Assembly: GCF_025964975.1 (NCBI RefSeq)
Contig: NZ_JAOPXV010000125.1
Location: forward strand, 1 to 51,042
DNA from: Nocardioides sp.
GTDB taxonomy: Bacteria; Actinomycetota; Actinomycetes; Propionibacteriales; Nocardioidaceae
DNA: 51,042 nt
Direction of reading: 5' to 3'
Part shown: positions 7,721 through 19,522 of the stretch, in pieces
Layout of the letters: every line of letters begins with the position of its first letter
Position numbering within the stretch: position 1 is the stretch's first letter
Notes under the pieces: model-generated
Told to the model about the DNA's origin: nothing
Database searches by the model: none
Seen by the model: only the letters and a program-made list of their open reading frames with translations
Program-made: the position numbers and the translations under genes

Positions 7721-7739
7721 TATGGTTAGCCTGACCTAA
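7721..7739 (+). promoter_or_regulatory. Iron box (IdeR/DmdR-type operator)
   Basis: TATGGTTAGCCTGACCTAA matches the 19-bp actinobacterial iron-box consensus TTAGGTTAGGCTAACCTAA (written with the usual S/W degeneracy) at all but about three positions and is nearly palindromic. It lies 17 bases before the ATG of the iron-binding lipoprotein gene, where bound Fe-regulator would block transcription. This predicts that the four genes that follow are induced by iron limitation. Confidence 0.85.
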
Positions 7740-7755: not shown

Positions 7756-8754
7756 ATGAAGCGCGTCCCTGCTCTGGCGGGTGTTCTCCTGCTGGGTCTC
7801 CTCACCGCGGGCTGCGGCTCCGACGAGCCGAAGCTGGTCGTCTACAACGCCCAGCACGAGCCGTTGCTGGCCGAGCTGGCGCCCGCCTTCACCGAGGCCA
7901 CCGGTATCGAGGTCGAGCTGCGCAACGGCAAGGACCTCGAGATGTCCAACCAGCTCGTGCAGGAGGGCGATGCCTCGCCCGCCGACGTCTTCCTGACCGA
8001 GAACTCCCCCGCGATGTCGCAGGTGGAGGCGGCAGGGCTCTTCGAGGAGCTTCCCGCCGACCTCGTCGCGCCGATCCCGGAGCAGTTCCGGCCACGCAGC
8101 GGTCTGTGGACCGGCTTCGTGGCCCGGTCGACCGTGCTGGTCTACAACACCGACCAGGTGCAGGCCTCCGATCTGCCCGCCTCGATCCTCGACCTCGCCG
8201 ACCCCGAATGGGCGGGCCGCATCTCGTTCTCACCGACGGGCGCCGACTTCCAGGCCATCGTCGCCGCCGTGCTGGAGCTCGAGGGCGAGGACGCCACGCG
8301 CGCCTGGCTCGAGGGGATCAAGGCCAACGGCACCGCCTACGACGGCAACAACGTCGTGCTGGAGGCCGTCGACTCGGGCGAGTCCGAGGTCGGCATCGTC
8401 TACCACTACTACTGGGAGCGCGACCGCGCCGAGAACGGCGACGTCAGCGACAACAGTGAGCAGTACTACTTCGGTGACCAGGACCCCGGCGCCTTCGTGA
8501 GCGTGTCGGGCGCTGGGATCCTGGCGTCCAGCGACATGAAGTCCGAGGCGGAGCAGTTCGTCGAGTTCCTCGTGGACGAGCAGGGGCAGCAGGTGCTCGC
8601 CGACAGCTATGCCCTCGAGTACCCGCTCAACCCGGCCGTCCAGCTCGAGCCGCCGGTCAAGCCCTTCAGCGAGCTGCAGCCGCCCCGGGTCAACGTCTCC
8701 GACCTCGACGCGAAGCGCGTGGTGGAGCTGATGACCGAGATCGGCTTCCTCTGA
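7756..8754 (+). CDS. Ferric iron ABC transporter substrate-binding lipoprotein
   Basis: This 332-residue FutA/FbpA-like periplasmic-type binding protein is anchored as a lipoprotein: the signal peptide ends in LLTAGC with lipidated Cys20. The mature part has the iron-binding family pattern: LVVYNAQHEPLLAELAPAF at the N-terminus, ADVFLTENSPAMSQVEAAGL in the first third, and DSGESEVGIVYHYYWERDRAE, whose Tyr pair is the usual Fe3+ ligand of this family. It is preceded by GAAAGG at a suitable distance and by an iron box. It is the first gene of a permease-ATPase-fusion operon. Free Fe3+ or a simple ferric chelate is the likely substrate. Confidence 0.92.
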   Translation: MKRVPALAGVLLLGLLTAGCGSDEPKLVVYNAQHEPLLAELAPAFTEATGIEVELRNGKDLEMSNQLVQEGDASPADVFLTENSPAMSQVEAAGLFEELPADLVAPIPEQFRPRSGLWTGFVARSTVLVYNTDQVQASDLPASILDLADPEWAGRISFSPTGADFQAIVAAVLELEGEDATRAWLEGIKANGTAYDGNNVVLEAVDSGESEVGIVYHYYWERDRAENGDVSDNSEQYYFGDQDPGAFVSVSGAGILASSDMKSEAEQFVEFLVDEQGQQVLADSYALEYPLNPAVQLEPPVKPFSELQPPRVNVSDLDAKRVVELMTEIGFL

Positions 8755-8855: not shown

Positions 8856-10337
8856 GTGTCCCTGATGCCCCTCGGCTACGTCCTCGTCACCACAGCCCAG
8901 CTCGGGGCAGGTGAGGCCGCTGCGTTCCTCTGGCGCCCACGGGTGGGTGAGCTCCTGTGGAACACCGTGCGCCTGCTGGTCACCGGGGTCGCGTGCTGCC
9001 TGCTGATCGGCCTGGCGGGCGCGTGGGTCGTGGAGCGTACCGACCTGCGGGGGCGCGGCTGGTGGCACGCCCTCATGTGCGCGCCGCTGGCGGTGCCGGC
9101 CTTCGTCAACGGCTACGGCTGGGTCTCGACCACCCACGCCGTCCAGTCCTTCGCAGGCGCGGTGATGGTGACGACCCTGTCCTACTTCCCCTTCGTCTAC
9201 CTGCCGACCGTGGCCGCGATGCGTCGACTCGACCCCGCGGTGGAGGAGGTGGCGACCTCCCTGGGTCACGGGCCATGGCGCGTCTTCTGGTGGGTCACCC
9301 TGCCTGCGATCAGCCCTGCCGTTCTCGGGGGTGCCCTGCTCGTCGGGCTGCACCTGCTGGCCGAGTACGGCGCCCTGCAGCTGCTCAACTACCCGACCCT
9401 GACGACCGCGATCCTCCAGCAGTACGCCACCGTCTTCAACGGTCCCGCTGCCACCCTGCTGGCCCTGGTGCTGGTGCTCTTCTGCCTCCTGCTGCTGCTG
9501 CTCGAACACCTGCTGCGTGGTCGCCGACCGCTGGCGCGCGTCGGCTCCGGCGCCAGCCGTTCAGCGGTTTGCGTGCCGCTGGGCAGGCACCGGCACACCG
9601 TCGCCATCGCTCTCGCACTGCTGGCCGTGTGGTCGCTGGCAGTGCCGCTCGTCAGTCTCGTGCGGTGGCTGGTCAAGGGCACCTCGGCCGGGATCGACGT
9701 CGCGGAGCTGATCGGTGCGATCGGCACCACCCTCGGGCTCGGTGCCGCCGGCGGCCTGCTGGCCACGGTGACCGCAGTGCCGGTCGTCTGGCTGGCCGTG
9801 CGCCACCGCAGCGCACTGAGCATGTTCGTGGAGCGGAGCGTCTACACAGCCAGTGCCATGCCCGGCATCGTGATCGGGCTGGCGCTCGTCACGATCTCGA
9901 TCCGCGTGATGCCCAGCCTCTATCAGACCGTGGTCGTCCTGCTGGTCGGCTACACGGTGCTGTTCCTGCCCCGCGCGGTGGTGAGCCTCCGCGGCACCGT
10001 CGAGCTCATCCCGGCCTCCCTCGACGACGTCGCTCGCAGCCTGGGCTGTCGCGGGTCCGAGGTGATGCGGCGGGTCACGCTGCCGCTGGCACTGCCGGGC
10101 CTGGCGGCGGCGACGGCGCTGGTGGCGCTGGCCGTGTCGACCGAGCTCACCGCGACCCTCCTCCTCGCGCCGACGGGCACCGACACCCTGGCGACGAAGT
10201 TCTGGTCCGACGCGTCCTCGGTCGCGTACGGCGCCGCAGCGCCGTACGCCCTTGCCCTGATCATCCTGTCGATCCCGGCGACCTGGCTCCTGGGTCGACT
10301 GAGCACCCCCGGCGACCGGACCGAGGTGGCGCGGTGA
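8856..10337 (+). CDS. Ferric iron ABC transporter permease (start uncertain, may begin at CTG 8751)
   Basis: This is an FbpB/SfuB-type permease made of two homologous six-helix halves, each with an EAA loop: EEVATSLGHGPWRVFWWVTLP and DDVARSLGCRGSEVMRRVTLP. From the GTG at 8856 it is 493 residues, but that start removes most of the first membrane helix. The frame is open upstream to 8751 through SIVEAPASPRRSPG...PTALLWAGGLIAAVSLMPLGY, a normal N-terminus for the family, and holds no ATG, GTG or TTG there. The only candidate is CTG at 8751, overlapping the TGA of the lipoprotein gene. Its stop overlaps the ATPase GTG. Confidence 0.9.
   Translation: MSLMPLGYVLVTTAQLGAGEAAAFLWRPRVGELLWNTVRLLVTGVACCLLIGLAGAWVVERTDLRGRGWWHALMCAPLAVPAFVNGYGWVSTTHAVQSFAGAVMVTTLSYFPFVYLPTVAAMRRLDPAVEEVATSLGHGPWRVFWWVTLPAISPAVLGGALLVGLHLLAEYGALQLLNYPTLTTAILQQYATVFNGPAATLLALVLVLFCLLLLLLEHLLRGRRPLARVGSGASRSAVCVPLGRHRHTVAIALALLAVWSLAVPLVSLVRWLVKGTSAGIDVAELIGAIGTTLGLGAAGGLLATVTAVPVVWLAVRHRSALSMFVERSVYTASAMPGIVIGLALVTISIRVMPSLYQTVVVLLVGYTVLFLPRAVVSLRGTVELIPASLDDVARSLGCRGSEVMRRVTLPLALPGLAAATALVALAVSTELTATLLLAPTGTDTLATKFWSDASSVAYGAAAPYALALIILSIPATWLLGRLSTPGDRTEVAR
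10225..10250. repeat. Perfect 11-bp inverted repeat inside the permease gene
   Basis: GCGTACGGCGC and its exact complement GCGCCGTACGC flank a four-base loop (CGCA). The element encodes AYGAAAPYA of the permease, a segment common in this family, so coding constraint may explain it. The stem would be very stable in mRNA. Confidence 0.6.
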
Positions 10338-11437
10338 GCGCGGCACTGGAGGTGCGCGGCCTCGCGGTCGGCTATCCCGGTCGCCCGGTCCTGCGCGGTA
10401 TCGACCTCACCGTCGCAGGCGGCGTGACCGCCGTTGTCGGGCCCTCCGGCTGCGGCAAGACCACCCTGCTCAGGACGATCGCGGGCTTCCACGCGCCCGA
10501 CTCGGGCACGATCTCGATCGCCGGCCGCGACGTGGCCGGCCCGGGCCGCGCCGTACCGGCGCGCAGCCGCGGACTGGGCTTCGTGCCGCAGGAGGGTGCA
10601 CTGTTCCCGCACCTGTCCGTGGCCGCCAACGTGGCCTTCGGGCTGCCGCGCGGCGAGCGGCGCAGCCTGGAGCGTGCCCGCGAGCTGCTGGCCATGGTCG
10701 ACCTGCCCGTCGAGCTGCTCGACCGCTACCCCCGTGACCTGTCCGGGGGACAGCAGCAGCGCGTCGCGCTGGCCCGCGCACTGGCACCCCGTCCGGCCCT
10801 GGTCCTGCTCGACGAACCCTTCTCGTCGCTCGACGCGGGCCTGAGGGAGGGCACCGGACGAGCCGTAGTGGCAGCGCTGCGCAGTGCGGGAGCGAGCGCG
10901 CTGATCGTGACCCACGACCAGGGGGAGGCGCTGTCGCTGGCCGACCAGGTCGCGGTGATGATCGAGGGCCGGTTCCTCCAGGTGAGCGCCCCGGCCCAGG
11001 TCTACCTCGCTCCGGCCGACCCGCGGGTCGCCTCCTTCATCGGTCACGCCACCCTGCTCCCCGGTGTCGCCACCTCACGCGCGGCAGCCACGTGCGCGCT
11101 CGGTGCCCTGCCGTTGAGGACGGCCGTCGCGCCGGGGCCGGTAGAGGTCGCCGTACGCGCCGAGCAGGTGCAGGTGCACCGCGCCGGTGGGCTGGGGGTG
11201 GAGGGGGTCGTCGAGGACGTCAGCTTCTACGGCCATGACGCAGCCGCCACTGTCCGCCTCCACGGGGGCGAGCGGATCGCGGCGCGGATCCCCGCGACGG
11301 GCGTGCCCGAGTCGGGCGTGCGTGTGCGGGTCGAGGTCCTGGGCGAGGTGGTCGCGTTCTCGACGGCTCCGACACCCACTGACGAGACGGGCCTGTCCGC
11401 TGGCGAAGGGACGATGGTCCCGGAGGCGACGGCATGA
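10334..11437 (+). CDS. Ferric iron ABC transporter ATP-binding protein
   Basis: This 367-residue FbpC-like ATPase couples ATP hydrolysis to iron uptake. Walker A (GPSGCGKTT, near residue 37), signature LSGGQQQRVALARALA, Walker B LVLLDEPFSSLD and the switch His in VTHDQGEALS are all intact. A C-terminal TOBE-type regulatory region follows (VEVAVRAEQVQVHRAGGLGVEGVVEDVSFYGHDAAATVRL). It starts with GTG overlapping the permease stop, and its own stop overlaps the ATG of the fusion protein by four bases. All four genes are therefore likely translated from one message controlled by the iron box. Confidence 0.93.
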   Translation: MSAALEVRGLAVGYPGRPVLRGIDLTVAGGVTAVVGPSGCGKTTLLRTIAGFHAPDSGTISIAGRDVAGPGRAVPARSRGLGFVPQEGALFPHLSVAANVAFGLPRGERRSLERARELLAMVDLPVELLDRYPRDLSGGQQQRVALARALAPRPALVLLDEPFSSLDAGLREGTGRAVVAALRSAGASALIVTHDQGEALSLADQVAVMIEGRFLQVSAPAQVYLAPADPRVASFIGHATLLPGVATSRAAATCALGALPLRTAVAPGPVEVAVRAEQVQVHRAGGLGVEGVVEDVSFYGHDAAATVRLHGGERIAARIPATGVPESGVRVRVEVLGEVVAFSTAPTPTDETGLSAGEGTMVPEATA

Positions 11438-13890
11438 CGATGGTGCCCGACTCCGTCCACCAGCTCCTGCCCTTCGCCGGGGCAGCCGAGGACGTCGCCC
11501 TGGTCCAGGACGGCCGGTCCCTCACCTACGCCGGTCTCGCGGCAGCGATCCGCCACGAGGCTGACCGGTTGACCCTGCTCGGTCCGCGCCGCGTGCGGGT
11601 GCTCGAGATGCGCAACGACATCGACTCCGTGGTCGCCCTGCTCGGCTCGCTCACCGCCGGTCATCCGGTCGTCGTGGTCGAGGCCGGCAACCCCACGCGG
11701 TCGGCCGACATCGAGGCCGCGTACGCCGGAGCGAGCGACCTGCACCCCGACCTCGGCCTGCTGCTGTCCACCTCCGCATCCACCGGGTCGCCCAAGCTCG
11801 TACGGCTCTCGCACGACAACATCTGGGCCAACGCGCAGAGCATCGCCGACTACCTCGGTCTGACGGCCGAGGATCGAGCGGTCATGTCCCTGCCCCTGCA
11901 CTACTGCTACGGACTCTCGGTCCTGACCAGCCACCTGGTCGTGGGCGCCACGGTCGTGCTCACCGACGCGTCGGTGGCCGACGACCGCTTCTGGAGCCTG
12001 GCGCGATCGGCTGGAGCCACGAGCTTCGCCGGCGTCCCCTACACGTTCGAGCTCCTCGAGTGCCGGGGCTTCACCGGGGCCGAGCTGCCGACCCTTCGCT
12101 ACCTCACCCAGGCCGGGGGACGGATGGACCCGGCTCGCGTCCGACGGTTCGCCGCACTCGGACGTGAGCGGGCCTTCGACCTGTTCGTGATGTACGGGCA
12201 GACCGAGGCCACGGCGCGGATGGCCTACCTGCCGCCGCACCTCGCGCACGACCGTCCCGAGGCCATCGGCATCCCGGTGCCGGGGGGCGACTTCCGGCTG
12301 GCGCCGGTGCCGGGGGCACCCGACGGCGCCGGCGAGCTCGTCTATACCGGACCCAACGTGATGATGGGCTACGCGCACACCGCGGCGGACCTGGCGCGCG
12401 GCCCGGAGACGACGACCCTGCACACGGGAGACCTGGCACGCCAGGCCGATGACGGGCTCTGGGAGATCTGCGGGCGCCTGGACCGCCATGCCAAGGTCCT
12501 GGGGCTGCGCCTCGACCTTGCACGGCTCGAGGCACGGATGCCCGTGGCGACGGCCGTCGTCGTCGACGCCGACGCCGTGCACGCCTTCGTCACGGCTTCG
12601 AGGATGACCGAGCGCGTACGCCGCGAGCTGAGTGCCCTGTCGGGCCTGCCAGGCCACCTCGTGCGGGTGCACGAGATCGAGACGCTGCCGACGAACAGTC
12701 GGGGCAAGACCGACTACGCGCTCCTCGCTGCCCACGCGTCGGCGAGCGCCACCGCGACCCTCGACGACCAGCACGAGCAGACCATGGAGTCCGCCAGCCC
12801 GGAGGCGTTGCGCAACCTGTTCGCCGTGGTCCTGGGTCGCCCGGACGCGGACCTCGACCACACCTTTGCCGACCTCGGCGGGGACTCGCTGTCCTTCGTC
12901 GAGGTCTCGACCCAGCTCGCCCACCGGCTCGGTCATCTCCCGGCCGGCTGGCCGAGGCTCACCCCGCGGCAGCTCGCCGCGACGGCGCGCCCTGGCTCGC
13001 GCCGGCTCCTGGCCACCGAACCCGCCGTGGTCCTGCGAGCGCTGGCCATCGTCGCGATCGTGATGTCCCACGCCGACCTGTTCATGGTCATGGGCGGGGC
13101 GCACGTGCTCCTGGCCGTGGTGGGCTTCAACCTCGCCAGGCTCTCGCTCCACACGGTCGGGCGGACCGAGCGCGCCAGGCGGCTCGTGGCCAGCACGGCA
13201 GGCTTCGCCGTCCCCGCGGCGGTGTGGATCGGCGTCACCGGCACGGTGACCGGTGACTACAGACCCGCGACGGCGCTGTTCCTCAACCAGGCCGTGGGCG
13301 GGCCGACCTGGACCGCGGACTGGCAGTTCTGGTTCCTGGAGGTCGTCGTCTGGTCCACTCTTGGCCTCGCGGCGCTGGTGCTGCTCCCGGTCCTCGACCG
13401 CGGCCTGCGACAACGGCCTTTCGCGGTCGCCGTGGGCGTCCTGGGATGTGCGCTCGCGGTGCGCTACCTCGCCGTGGGACTCGCGGCCGGCGGTACCGAC
13501 AAGTACACCCTGCTCGGAACGGTGTGGTGCATCGCCATCGGGTGGGCGGCGGCCGAAGCCCGGACGCGACGACAGCGGTATCTGGTGGCCGCGGCGATCG
13601 TGGTCGGAGCCGCTGGCTACTTCTCCGACGACCTTTCGCGAACTGCCGTGCTCGTCGCGGGCATGCTGGTCCTGTTGGCCCCCGGGAACGTGCGCCTGCC
13701 CCGGCACCTCTCGCGGTCCCTCCACCTGGTCGCCGGGGCGTCGCTGTGGATCTACCTCACCCACTGGCAGGTCTATCCCGGGCTCGAGGCCGCTGGTCAC
13801 CCCGTCGCCGCGGTGCTCACGTCGATCGCGGTCGGGCTCCTCGCCCACCGCGCGCACGGGTGGGTCCTCAGCCGGCTCCGTCCCCGCTGA
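11434..13890 (+). CDS. Adenylation - carrier - membrane acyltransferase fusion protein
   Basis: This 818-residue protein has three parts. Residues 1-435 form an AMP-binding adenylation domain: core LLSTSASTGSPKLVRLSH, YGQTEATARM, LHTGDLARQ, GRLDRHAKVLGLRLD and the A10 lysine in NSRGKTDYA (Lys425). Residues 450-520 form a carrier domain with phosphopantetheine Ser485 in DLGGDSLSFVE. Residues 530-818 hold about ten membrane helices resembling acyltransferase family 3, with the helix-1 Arg...His pattern (RALAIVAIVMSHAD) and WQFWFLEVVVW. An acid would be activated, loaded on the carrier and passed to an acceptor at or across the membrane. Substrate and product are unknown. Coupling to the iron transporter suggests an iron-acquisition role. 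I do not recognise a characterised homologue. Confidence 0.8.
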   Translation: MTMVPDSVHQLLPFAGAAEDVALVQDGRSLTYAGLAAAIRHEADRLTLLGPRRVRVLEMRNDIDSVVALLGSLTAGHPVVVVEAGNPTRSADIEAAYAGASDLHPDLGLLLSTSASTGSPKLVRLSHDNIWANAQSIADYLGLTAEDRAVMSLPLHYCYGLSVLTSHLVVGATVVLTDASVADDRFWSLARSAGATSFAGVPYTFELLECRGFTGAELPTLRYLTQAGGRMDPARVRRFAALGRERAFDLFVMYGQTEATARMAYLPPHLAHDRPEAIGIPVPGGDFRLAPVPGAPDGAGELVYTGPNVMMGYAHTAADLARGPETTTLHTGDLARQADDGLWEICGRLDRHAKVLGLRLDLARLEARMPVATAVVVDADAVHAFVTASRMTERVRRELSALSGLPGHLVRVHEIETLPTNSRGKTDYALLAAHASASATATLDDQHEQTMESASPEALRNLFAVVLGRPDADLDHTFADLGGDSLSFVEVSTQLAHRLGHLPAGWPRLTPRQLAATARPGSRRLLATEPAVVLRALAIVAIVMSHADLFMVMGGAHVLLAVVGFNLARLSLHTVGRTERARRLVASTAGFAVPAAVWIGVTGTVTGDYRPATALFLNQAVGGPTWTADWQFWFLEVVVWSTLGLAALVLLPVLDRGLRQRPFAVAVGVLGCALAVRYLAVGLAAGGTDKYTLLGTVWCIAIGWAAAEARTRRQRYLVAAAIVVGAAGYFSDDLSRTAVLVAGMLVLLAPGNVRLPRHLSRSLHLVAGASLWIYLTHWQVYPGLEAAGHPVAAVLTSIAVGLLAHRAHGWVLSRLRPR

Positions 13891-14009
13891 CGCGTGGATT
13901 GCCCGCCCGGATACCGAACATGGGGACTGGCGTGCACCCGGCGAGGGGAGTAGGCAGGAAGGATCCGGCAGTGCCGTTCCGAGCACTGCGACATCACCAA
14001 GGAGCAGCG

Positions 14010-14407
14010 ATGCTGAACGATAGCGCGATCACCGCCAACGTCCCGGTCTCGGACCTTCAACGCGCACGTCGTTTCTACGCCGACACGCTCGGCTCACACC
14101 TGCCGATGAGAACCCGGGCGGGTTGGTCTACACGACCAATGGCGGGACGACCTTCTTCCTCTATCAGACCGAGTACGCAGGACAAGCAGGCCACACCATC
14201 GCGCAGTGGCACGTCGCCAACGTCGCCAACGTCGCAGACGAGGTACGTGACCTGAAGGTCAGGGGCCTGGAGTTCGAGCACGACGACATGCCAGGCGTCA
14301 CCTGGGACGGAGACATCGCCCCCATGGAGGGGATGGGCCACGCCGCCTGGTTCAAGGACAGTGAGGGCAACATCATGTGCCTCGACGACTACGCCGCAAG
14401 CAGCTGA
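14010..14407 (+). pseudogene. VOC (glyoxalase-fold) protein, broken by a one-base deletion
   Basis: The ATG at 14010, behind AAGGAGCAGCG, opens MLNDSAITANVPVSDLQRARRFYADTLG. The frame then shifts at about 14093, and the rest of the domain continues in another frame as LTPADENPGGLVYTTNGGTTFFLYQTE...WFKDSEGNIMCLDDYAASS. Adding one C (GGCTCAC read as GGCCTCAC) restores a continuous domain of about 132 residues, LGLTPADENPGG. This is either a real recent lesion or a sequencing error. The family covers glyoxalase, dioxygenase and resistance folds, and no specific activity can be given. It belongs to neither neighbour's operon with certainty. Confidence 0.8.
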
Positions 14408-16445: not shown

Positions 16446-18515
16446 CTAGCGAGTCTTCGCCACCAAGGTCAGCACGTCGTACGTCGCAACCGGCTCGTCG
16501 GCGCCGTTGGTGACCGTCGCGTCCCACCGGACCTCGCCGTAGTCGGCGTTGGACCGCGGGGTGATCTGCTTGACGGTCAGCTCGACCTTGATGGAGTCGC
16601 CGGCCTTGACGGGGGTCAGGAAGCGCAAGCGGTCGACGCCGAAGTTGGCCAGCACCGGGCCCGGGTCGGGATCGACGAACAGTCCGGCCGCGAGCGAGAC
16701 GACGAGGTAGCCGTGCGCCACGATGCCGCCGAAGAGCGGGTTCTTGGTCGCCGCCTCCTCGTCGGTGTGGGCGTAGAACGCGTCGCCGGTGAAGTCCGCG
16801 AAGTGCTCGATGTCGTCGAGGGTGACGAGGCGGCTCCCGCTGCTGATCGTGTCGCCCACGGCCAGCTCGGCGAGGCTCTTGCGGAAGGGGTGCTCGGGGG
16901 TCACGGTCCGCGAGGAGCCGGTGATCCACTGCCCGCCGATCGCGGTGAGCATGTCGGGGGAGCCCTGGACGGCCGAGCGCTGCATGTGGTGGAGCACCGC
17001 GCGAACGCCGCCGAGCTCCTCGCCGCCGCCGGCGCGCCCCGGCCCGCCGTGCACCAGCACCGGCAGCGGAGAGCCGTGGCCGGTGGACTCGGCGGCACAG
17101 GACCGGTCGAGCACCAGCAGGCGCCCGTGCCACGGCGCCAGGCCCCGCGTCAGGGTGCGCGCCACCTCCGCGTCGTGGGTGACGATCGAGCCGACCAGGC
17201 TGCCCTGTCCGCGTGCCGCGAGCCGGACTGCGTCGTCGAGGTCGGTGTAGGTGATCACGGTGGCGACGGGTCCGAAGGGCTCGATGTCGTGCGGCTCGCT
17301 GGCGCCCGGGTAGGCACGTAGCAGGACGGGGGACATGAAGGCCCCGGTCTCGTGGTCCGCGTCGACCACCTCGACGACGTCGGGGTTGCCGAAGACGATC
17401 TCGGCAGAGGCCCGCAGCGCCTGGACGGCCTTGCGGACCTCGTCGCGCTGGGCGAGGCTCGCCAGGGCGCCCATCCGGACGCCCTCGCTGCTCGGGTGGC
17501 CGACGGTGATCTTGGCCAGGCGGGCCGAGATGGCGGCGACGACCTCGTCGGCCATGGCCTCGGGCACGATCACCCGTCGGATCGCGGTGCACTTCTGGCC
17601 GGCCTTGAGGGTCATCTCGGTGACGACGCCCTTGACGAAGAGCTCGAACTCCGGGTCGTCGGCAGCCACGTCGGTGCCGAGGATCGAGCAGTTGAGGGAG
17701 TCGGCCTCGACGCCGAGCTGCACCCCGCCGTGGAGCACCGAGGGGTGCTGGCGCAGGTGTGCGCCGGTCGAGGCGGAGCCGGTGAACGCCACCGAGTCCT
17801 GCGGTCCCAGCTCGTCGAGGAGCCCGGCCGGTGACCCGCACAGAAGCTGGAGGGTGCCCTCGGGCAGGAGGCCGGACTCGATGATGCGGCGTACCACCGC
17901 CTCGGTGACGTAGGCCGTCTGGCTGGCGGGCTTCACGATCGTCGGCAGTCCGGCGATGAAGGCGGGGGCCAGCTTCTCGAGCATGCCCCACACCGGGAAG
18001 TTGAAGGCGTTGATCTGTACGGCGACCCCGGGGCGGGACGTGTAGAGGTGCTGGCCCAGGAAGGTGCCCTCGCGGCCGAGGCGTTCGACCTGTCCGTCGA
18101 GCACGACCACGTCGTTGGGCAGCTCGCGGGTGCCCTTGGAGGCGATGGAGAAGACGGTGCCGATACCGCCGTCGATATCGACCATGGAGTCACGCAACGT
18201 GGCGCCGCTGCGGGCGGAGAGGGCGTAGAACTCGTCCTTGTGCTCGCCCAGCACCTTGGCCATCGCCTTGAGAGCGGCGGCGCGCTCGTGGAAGGTCATC
18301 GACCGCAGCGCCGGCCCGCCCACCTCGCGGGCGTAGGCCGTCATGGCACCGAGGTCGAGACCGGTCGAGGAGATCCGGGCCACCTCCTCGCTGGTGGCAG
18401 CGTCGAGGAGCGGCTCGCCCTCGTCGCTCGCGCGGAACCAGGAGCCGCACGCGAAGCTCTCCAGCAGGGGAGCCTGGGACTCGGTCTCGGAGTTCGTTGC
18501 AGAAGCGTTGGGCAC
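16446..18515 (-). CDS. paaZ: Bifunctional oxepin-CoA hydrolase / 3-oxo-5,6-dehydrosuberyl-CoA semialdehyde dehydrogenase
   Basis: This 689-residue ring-opening enzyme of phenylacetate catabolism has two domains. Residues about 15-525 form an aldehyde dehydrogenase with Glu270 (GVEADSLN) and catalytic Cys309 ([10 protein letters not shown]). Residues about 545-689 form a MaoC-like hydratase with [31 protein letters not shown]. The hydratase opens oxepin-CoA and the dehydrogenase oxidises the resulting semialdehyde. The start is GTG at 18515 ([10 protein letters not shown]); no in-frame ATG lies between there and the conserved region. It diverges from paaABCDE across a shared TetR palindrome. 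A short copy of its 3' end is found about 890 bases downstream. Confidence 0.96.
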
Positions 18516-18528
18516 CGTGTCAGACTAT

Positions 18529-18548
18529 TACCGACCGATCGGTCTGTA
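18529..18548. promoter_or_regulatory. PaaR-type TetR operator between paaZ and paaA
   Basis: TACCGACCGATCGGTCTGTA contains the perfect 12-base palindrome GACCGATCGGTC and is symmetric at 18 of 20 positions. It sits in the 59-base gap between the divergent paaZ and paaA starts. The half site ACCGACCG is typical of TetR-family phenylacetate repressors, which release DNA on binding phenylacetyl-CoA. One site could control both directions. Confidence 0.78.
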
Positions 18549-18574
18549 AATGCCGTGCCAGGAGGAGATCAGCA

Positions 18575-19522
18575 GTGAGCGACACCCTGCAGACAGCGAG
18601 CCTGGAAGCCGACTTCGACCGGGTGATCGAGCGGCACGACCGCATCGAGCCGCGCGACTGGATGCCGGAGAAGTACCGCGCCACCCTCGTGCGCCAGGTC
18701 GCCCAGCACGCCCACTCCGAGATCATCGGCATGCAACCAGAGGGCAACTGGATCACCCGTGCTCCCAGCCTGCGGCGCAAGGCGATCCTGCTCGCCAAGG
18801 TGCAGGACGAGGCAGGTCACGGCCTCTACCTCTACAGCGCCTGCGAGACCCTCGGGGTCACCCGCGCCGAGCTCACCGAGAAGCTGATCGCCGGCAAGCA
18901 GAAGTACTCCTCGATCTTCAACTACCCGACGTTGTCGTATGCCGACGTCGGCACCATCGGCTGGCTGGTGGACGGCGCCGCGATCTGCAACCAGGTCCCG
19001 CTGTGCCGTACCTCTTATGGGCCCTACGGCCGAGCGATGAACCGCATCTGCAAGGAGGAGTCCTTCCACCAGCGGCAGGGCTTCGAGCTGCTGCTGACGA
19101 TGATGAGCGGCACCGACGCGCAGCGCGCGATGGTCCAGGAGTCGGTCGACCGGTTCTGGTGGCCCGCGTTGATGATGTTCGGCCCGCCCGATGTCGAGTC
19201 GCCCAACACCGCGCAGTCGATGGCGTGGCGGATCAAGCGCGACACCAACGACGACCTGCGCCAGAAGTTCGTGGACATGTCGGTGCCGCAGGCGCAGGCG
19301 CTCGGCGTCACCCTGCCGGACGCGGAGCTCCGTTGGAACGAGGAGCGGGGCCACTACGACTTCACCCAGCCCGACTGGGACGAGTTCATGGCCGTGGTCA
19401 AGGGCTCCGGCCCGTGCAACGCCCAGCGGATCGCTCACCGCAAGCGCGCCCTCGACGAGGGTGCCTGGGTCCGTGAGGCCGCGACCGCCTTCGCCCGCAG
19501 CCAGAGGGAGGACGCATCATGA
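18575..19522 (+). CDS. paaA: 1,2-phenylacetyl-CoA epoxidase, catalytic subunit
   Basis: This is the 315-residue diiron subunit of the PaaABCE monooxygenase, which epoxidises the ring of phenylacetyl-CoA. Iron-ligand motifs are visible in the four-helix bundle: [18 protein letters not shown] and [15 protein letters not shown]. The GTG at 18575 is chosen over the ORF-track start because GGAGGAG lies seven bases upstream and the first residues, [18 protein letters not shown], fit the family. The substrate-pocket region [14 protein letters not shown]...[13 protein letters not shown] is typical. The stop overlaps paaB by four bases. It is transcribed from the PaaR operator region. Confidence 0.96.

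Follow-up and report, generated by a model that had tools for sequence, protein, structure and literature searches.

The window analysed here, nucleotides (nt) 1 to 51,042 of contig NZ_JAOPXV010000125.1 of a Nocardioides species, carries a gene (11434-13890, forward strand) in which an adenylation domain, a carrier domain and a membrane acyltransferase of family 3 (AT3) are joined in a single open frame of 818 amino acids. It is the fourth gene of an operon that otherwise contains only fbpA, fbpB and fbpC, genes for a putative ferric-iron importer. We propose that this fusion is probably a so far undescribed aid to iron uptake. More specifically, and with confidence a little short of even, we favour the reading that it is an iron-starvation enzyme that works with FbpABC and acylates an acceptor outside the membrane to give a ligand of Fe(III). 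The public records consulted annotate the gene as 'AMP-binding protein' and nothing more. Searches of the open-access literature for such fusions, for FbpABC together with acyltransferases and for the RirA and IdeR regulons turned up no description of a gene of this kind; a preliminary description of the window, made from its sequence alone, had likewise remarked that no characterised example was known. The text of a paper on the DmdR1 regulon mentions neither FbpABC nor AMP-binding (PMC12161575).

The proposed fusion of adenylation, carrier and membrane acyltransferase domains is borne out by profile searches. From the N to the C terminus, Pfam recognised AMP-binding (PF00501, 138.7 bits against a cut-off of 29.9), PP-binding (PF00550, 37.9 against 20.8) and Acyl_transf_3 (PF01757, 43.5 against 31), each above its own threshold. 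The adenylation domain occupies residues 1-440 (11434-12753), the carrier residues 457-500 (12802-12933), with its attachment site Ser485 in GGDSL, and the membrane domain residues 533-791 (13030-13806), with the pair R535-X10-H546, all on the forward strand. Pfam found only these three domains in the fusion and no condensation or release/thioesterase domain, either here or in its homologues. The motifs of the ANL enzymes are in place (STSASTGSPK, MYGQTEAT and TGD for A3, A5 and A7, and the catalytic lysine K425), and the fold of the adenylation domain matches those of MenE and PltF. Its Pfam core begins near residue 107, and the AlphaFold model is ordered from about residue 20. The full model has a mean predicted local distance difference test (pLDDT) score of 87 and a predicted template modelling (pTM) score of 0.52, so the relative placement of the domains is unreliable; the AT3 domain modelled alone reaches a pLDDT of 95. 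The frame has a G+C content of 0.74/0.52/0.91 by codon position, like the fbp genes, and an antisense frame of 919 residues at 11227-13986 was dismissed as a shadow frame of GC-rich sequence.

Conservation across homologues follows the same architecture. When 26 homologues were scanned singly with Pfam, AMP-binding and PP-binding were found in all of them and Acyl_transf_3 in 24, and an alignment of 26 full proteins kept the adenylation motifs, Ser485, R535 and H546. The claim that the C-terminal helices align with acyltransferase family 3 thus held. Among fusion relatives D333, R348 and K425 are conserved and the phosphopantetheine site S485 is invariant. Of 200 Nocardioidaceae genomes searched whole, 78 have the fusion, and of 397 genomes sampled across the phylum, 18 gave a match at E <= 1e-60. 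Named actinobacterial loci include those of Nocardioides, Mycobacterium, Streptomyces, Arthrobacter, Pedococcus, Lentzea, Phytohabitans, Agromyces and Cellulomonas; further loci include those of Rhizobium, Ensifer, Mesorhizobium, Phyllobacterium, Leisingera and Caulobacterales. In a tree of adenylation domains the actinobacterial fusions form a single clade (100/96), outside which fall the alphaproteobacterial fusions and proteins that have only the adenylation domain. Fusions carried on plasmids, with or without fbpABC, were also seen in Rhodococcus, Mycolicibacterium and Pseudarthrobacter, several of them near genes for the transport of cadmium and other metals. No relative of the rhizobial member was found in viral contigs.

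The tie to FbpABC is the first line of evidence for a role in iron uptake. The ATG of the fusion (11434) overlaps the stop codon of fbpC (11435-11437) as ATGA, the four-base overlap of the two genes that had been noticed before, and fbpC overlaps fbpB by four nucleotides in the same way. Genes for FbpA, FbpB and FbpC adjoin the fusion in 35 of 40 sampled Nocardioidaceae loci and also in loci of Mycobacterium, Streptomyces, Rhodococcus, Lentzea, Phytohabitans, Agromyces and Janibacter, in several gene orders; the proposed refutation, that the fusion would seldom be found beside iron transporters, is therefore not borne out. The order fbpABC-fusion of the window is found in Mycolicibacterium chubuense, the order fusion-fbpABC on plasmids of Rhodococcus opacus and R. 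fascians, and other arrangements are divergent (Streptomyces), convergent (Agromyces and some Nocardioidaceae) or have fbpABC downstream (Janibacter). These permuted orders argue for selection on the pairing itself. Among the 200 Nocardioidaceae genomes, 48 encode a close FbpA and 47 of these carry the fusion too, and FbpA is present in 74 of 78 genomes with the fusion versus 13 of 122 without it. Three of the four fusion genomes that lack FbpA are 76-82% complete, and the assembly of the fourth is split into about 300 contigs; where the fusion is unlinked, FbpA is encoded elsewhere in six of six genomes. Repeated pairing is suggested by six loci in which the fusion is convergent with a second, more distant type of FbpABC that frequently has an iron box as well. 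The rhizobial fusions examined are single genes that do not stand beside fbpA.

Iron control is the second line. A box of the DtxR/IdeR/DmdR type, TATGGTTAGCCTGACCTAA, lies at 7721-7739, 16 nt 5' of the fbpA start, and supports the earlier label 'iron-regulated': it has two mismatches to TWAGGTTAGSCTAACCTWA, where shuffled sequence leads one to expect none, and it is the sole site with three mismatches or fewer in the 3.66-Mb genome (reversed control, zero). Similar boxes occur in most of the 40 Nocardioidaceae loci. With up to four mismatches allowed, 28 of 35 named actinobacterial loci have a DtxR/IdeR-type box just 5' of fbpA or just 5' of the fusion, and loci without an adjacent FbpABC are among them; the controls gave one match in 713 kb of reversed sequence and none in 403 kb of non-actinobacterial loci. 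In rhizobia the RirA operator TGA-N9-TCA (iron-responsive operator, IRO; consensus from PMC6386902) lies within 90 nt of the fusion start in 14 of 22 loci, a set that includes close relatives and some guessed start codons, against an expectation of 0.068 per locus, or about 1.5 over the 22. It is present 5' of the Sinorhizobium meliloti fusion as well. A genome-wide count of IRO-like patterns was too unspecific and was not used, and searches for iron control element (ICE) and Fur boxes 5' of alphaproteobacterial fusions gave no convincing number. On these predicted sites, one gene family appears to be controlled by two unrelated iron repressors, one in actinobacteria and the other in rhizobia. 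In rhizobial loci the IRO box was often seen to lie over a -35 element, TTGAC, and a TATAAT-like -10 element follows about 17 nt further on; RirA binding there would directly block the promoter.

The label 'ferric-iron transporter' also proved correct, because the binding protein is of the SfuA/YfuA type. FbpA (7756-8754, forward strand, 332 amino acids; Pfam SBP_bac_6) is a lipoprotein whose best PDB matches are SfuA and YfuA (E 2e-100), in alignments that run through its YHYY tyrosine pair; in NCBIfam the only matches, all below cut-off, were other ABC families. It is followed on the same strand by an FbpB-type permease (8856-10337; BPD_transp_1 in two stretches) and an FbpC-type ATPase (10334-11437; ABC_tran and TOBE_2). 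With a tyrosine-pair binding protein, a permease and an ATPase all recognised by sequence, the transporter is a putative FbpABC/SfuABC ferric importer. The GTG at 8856 is the sole ATG, GTG or TTG start for fbpB, yet it falls within the first membrane helix; translation probably begins further upstream, and the in-frame CTG at 8751, which overlaps the fbpA stop, may be the true start. Beyond the operon, a VOC/glyoxalase-like gene (14010-14407) has its start (14010) and its remainder (from about 14123) in different frames, which we attribute to a frameshift or sequencing error. Phenylacetate-degradation-like genes at 16446-19522 (PaaZ-like on the reverse strand, PaaA-like on the forward strand), assigned by eye, are outside the iron and fusion system.

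The adenylation pocket gives some indication of what the fusion may activate. Mapped manually from the motifs and checked against an alignment with VinN, it reads C158, Y159, S162, G200, T225, A227, M253, A261, R262 and K425 (positions matched in GrsA numbering). It is nearly invariant in the fusion family and in relatives with only the adenylation domain, except at position 235, which is Cys, Ser or Thr. The aspartate that holds an amino group is absent from that position (C158 here, Ser or Thr in relatives), so the substrate is probably a small acid that is not an amino acid. Position 331 is arginine (R262), as in VinN, where K330 and R331 are key loop residues (PMC11253843); the acid may carry a second acidic group, or a hydroxyl, near Arg262. 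The relatives of solved structure include VinN, MenE, oxalyl-CoA ligase and malonyl-CoA ligase (CoA, coenzyme A), which as clues to the substrate are suggestive only. Adenylation-only relatives without AT3 sit beside a small acyl carrier protein (ACP), SDR, LuxE and LuxC in surface-glycan clusters, and in one Treponema case a separate AT3 gene follows such genes. Fusions of Caulobacterales and Sphingomonadales adjoin flippase genes or a second AT3. These contexts suggest that the basic function is to transfer an acyl group to an acceptor outside the membrane. We also observed that the ACP-SDR-AMP ligase-LuxE-LuxC cassette, with the same pocket, recurs in glycan clusters of many phyla.

In the membrane domain, R535, H546, H557 and R569 are present in all 26 homologues, the first two forming the R-X10-H motif described for AT3 helix 1 (PMC9833829). 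H557 is nearly invariant in the actinobacterial set and is mostly replaced by Ala, Gly, Asp or Trp in alphaproteobacterial members, a difference suggesting that the acceptors of the two groups may differ. A sequence search of the PDB with the AT3 domain alone gave no match, and the single strong structural match of its model is a 637-residue viral protein.

Taken together, these features suggest the following route. When iron is low, a DtxR/IdeR-type repressor would leave the box at 7721-7739 and the operon would be expressed. The adenylation domain would form an acyl-adenylate and load the acyl group on Ser485 of the carrier, steps for which the motifs are present; its substrate would be a small acid that lacks an alpha-amino group and may bear, near Arg262, a hydroxyl or a further carboxylate. 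The carrier would then present its thioester at the cytoplasmic face of the AT3 domain, and R535 and H546 would serve to pass the acyl group through the membrane to the acceptor, at a hydroxyl or an amine; the domain and its motif are evident, and the topology, donor and acceptor are proposed here. The product, surface-bound or released, would bind Fe(III) weakly and collect it for FbpA. We infer this ligand role from the operon, the co-occurrence and the control by two unrelated regulators. The narrower proposition that the fusion is a single-enzyme route to a ligand, surface-bound or released, that FbpABC requires is possible, though we think it rather doubtful.

Each part of this route has a counterpart in known systems. 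The preliminary description had likened the fusion to a single-chain Dlt system, in which DltA, DltC, DltB and DltD carry out the D-alanylation of teichoic acids. The logic of adenylation, carriage and membrane transfer to an outside acceptor stands, whereas the identity of the parts does not: Dlt uses separate proteins and the MBOAT protein DltB, and the fusion is one chain with AT3, lacks the amino-group aspartate and a DltD partner, and is associated with iron boxes. A mechanistic one-chain analogue of Dlt, outside Dlt membership, is a fair analogy. With OafB, OatA and ExoH the fusion shares PF01757, R-X10-H and about ten helices, but it is joined to adenylation and carrier domains and probably receives its acyl group from that carrier domain instead of from acyl-CoA; the fusion partners named for AT3 in two papers on the family (PMC9558356, PMC9833829) are SGNH and alanine-racemase domains only, with no adenylation-carrier fusion among them. 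The ACP-AMP ligase-LuxE-LuxC cassettes hold the closest adenylation-domain relatives, with a near-identical pocket and a dedicated ACP, but consist of separate genes without a fused AT3. Nonribosomal peptide synthetases for siderophores and aryl-acid loaders also place an adenylation and a carrier domain under iron control; the fusion differs in lacking condensation and thioesterase domains and in its pocket, which is not of the DhbE type. AimS, an AT3 protein of Acinetobacter baumannii, is induced by low iron and needed in metal starvation (preprint PMC13345540), but it is an AT3 alone and works without altering cell metal content.

Several results weigh against the reading of the fusion as a maker of iron ligands for FbpABC. 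The pocket is common to glycan-cluster relatives and is therefore not iron-specific, and no recognised iron site was found at the Caulobacterales and Sphingomonadales fusions, which have polysaccharide genes nearby; their context suggests that the acylation enzyme may be a general one, with iron among its uses. Linkage is weaker in the phylum sample, with FbpABC adjacent in only 5 of 17 cases, and the counts of co-occurrence and of boxes draw in part on related genomes and carry no correction for phylogeny. Within the AT3 domain, only the second arginine of RXXR at helix 3 is well kept (R577 in 14 of 26 homologues, R580 in 23), and PDB structures gave only weak matches to HGSNAT of the TmAT superfamily. 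In simulations of OafB, RXXR contacts the 3'-phosphate of CoA (PMC9833829), so its loosening would fit a carrier donor.

Alternatively, the fusion might, at low iron, acylate a wall or capsule polysaccharide or a lipid, altering charge or permeability and benefiting FbpABC indirectly, through access or retention, with no chelator made. The usual acceptors of known AT3 proteins are extracytoplasmic carbohydrates (PMC9558356), succinyl-adding AT3 proteins offer a precedent, and adenylation-only relatives and some alphaproteobacterial fusions sit in glycan clusters; but a general envelope change would not call for so tight a pairing with a single kind of transporter, and we consider such a role on balance unlikely. 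Modification of the FbpA lipoprotein, which the preliminary description had listed as a candidate role beside a tethered chelator and the acylation of a lipid or wall polymer, was rejected as the main role, given that the rhizobial fusions examined lie away from fbpA; it is also disfavoured because the adenylation-domain relatives point to glycan or small acceptors.

The acceptor might instead be small and soluble, the AT3 domain joining it to the carrier-bound acid to give a minimal siderophore that FbpABC takes up or strips of its iron. Some AT3 enzymes do acylate small molecules, such as macrolides, the fusion stands alone under apparent iron control in rhizobia and in Arthrobacter relatives, and its own genome has no IucA/IucC gene. 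Proteins of the SfuA/FbpA type, however, bind ferric ion that is bare or bound to an anion, not classical siderophores, and no exporter or receptor gene is linked, which makes a diffusible chelator improbable in our view. Substitution for siderophores in genomes without IucA/IucC was considered separately and is unsupported (21 of 78 genomes with the fusion versus 42 of 122 without it, p 0.28). It is more improbable still that a general acyltransferase was caught in iron-regulated operons and has no part in iron uptake: the alphaproteobacterial members distant from iron genes would fit, but sites for two unrelated repressors, permuted gene orders and the 47 of 48 co-occurrence speak against it.

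The favoured reading, an enzyme that serves FbpABC by acylating an outside acceptor, has implications for both iron physiology and the AT3 family. To our knowledge, the ferric source that feeds FbpABC-type uptake in free-living actinobacteria is not known, and a gene that mostly accompanies FbpABC, with iron sites in two phyla, bears on what that source is. With the fusions, the AT3 family, described as acyl-CoA-using, would also gain an enzyme that is supplied by its own carrier domain. If the ligand route is true, then the 'siderophore-independent' ferric uptake of many actinobacteria and some rhizobia would need a dedicated ligand that has so far gone unseen.

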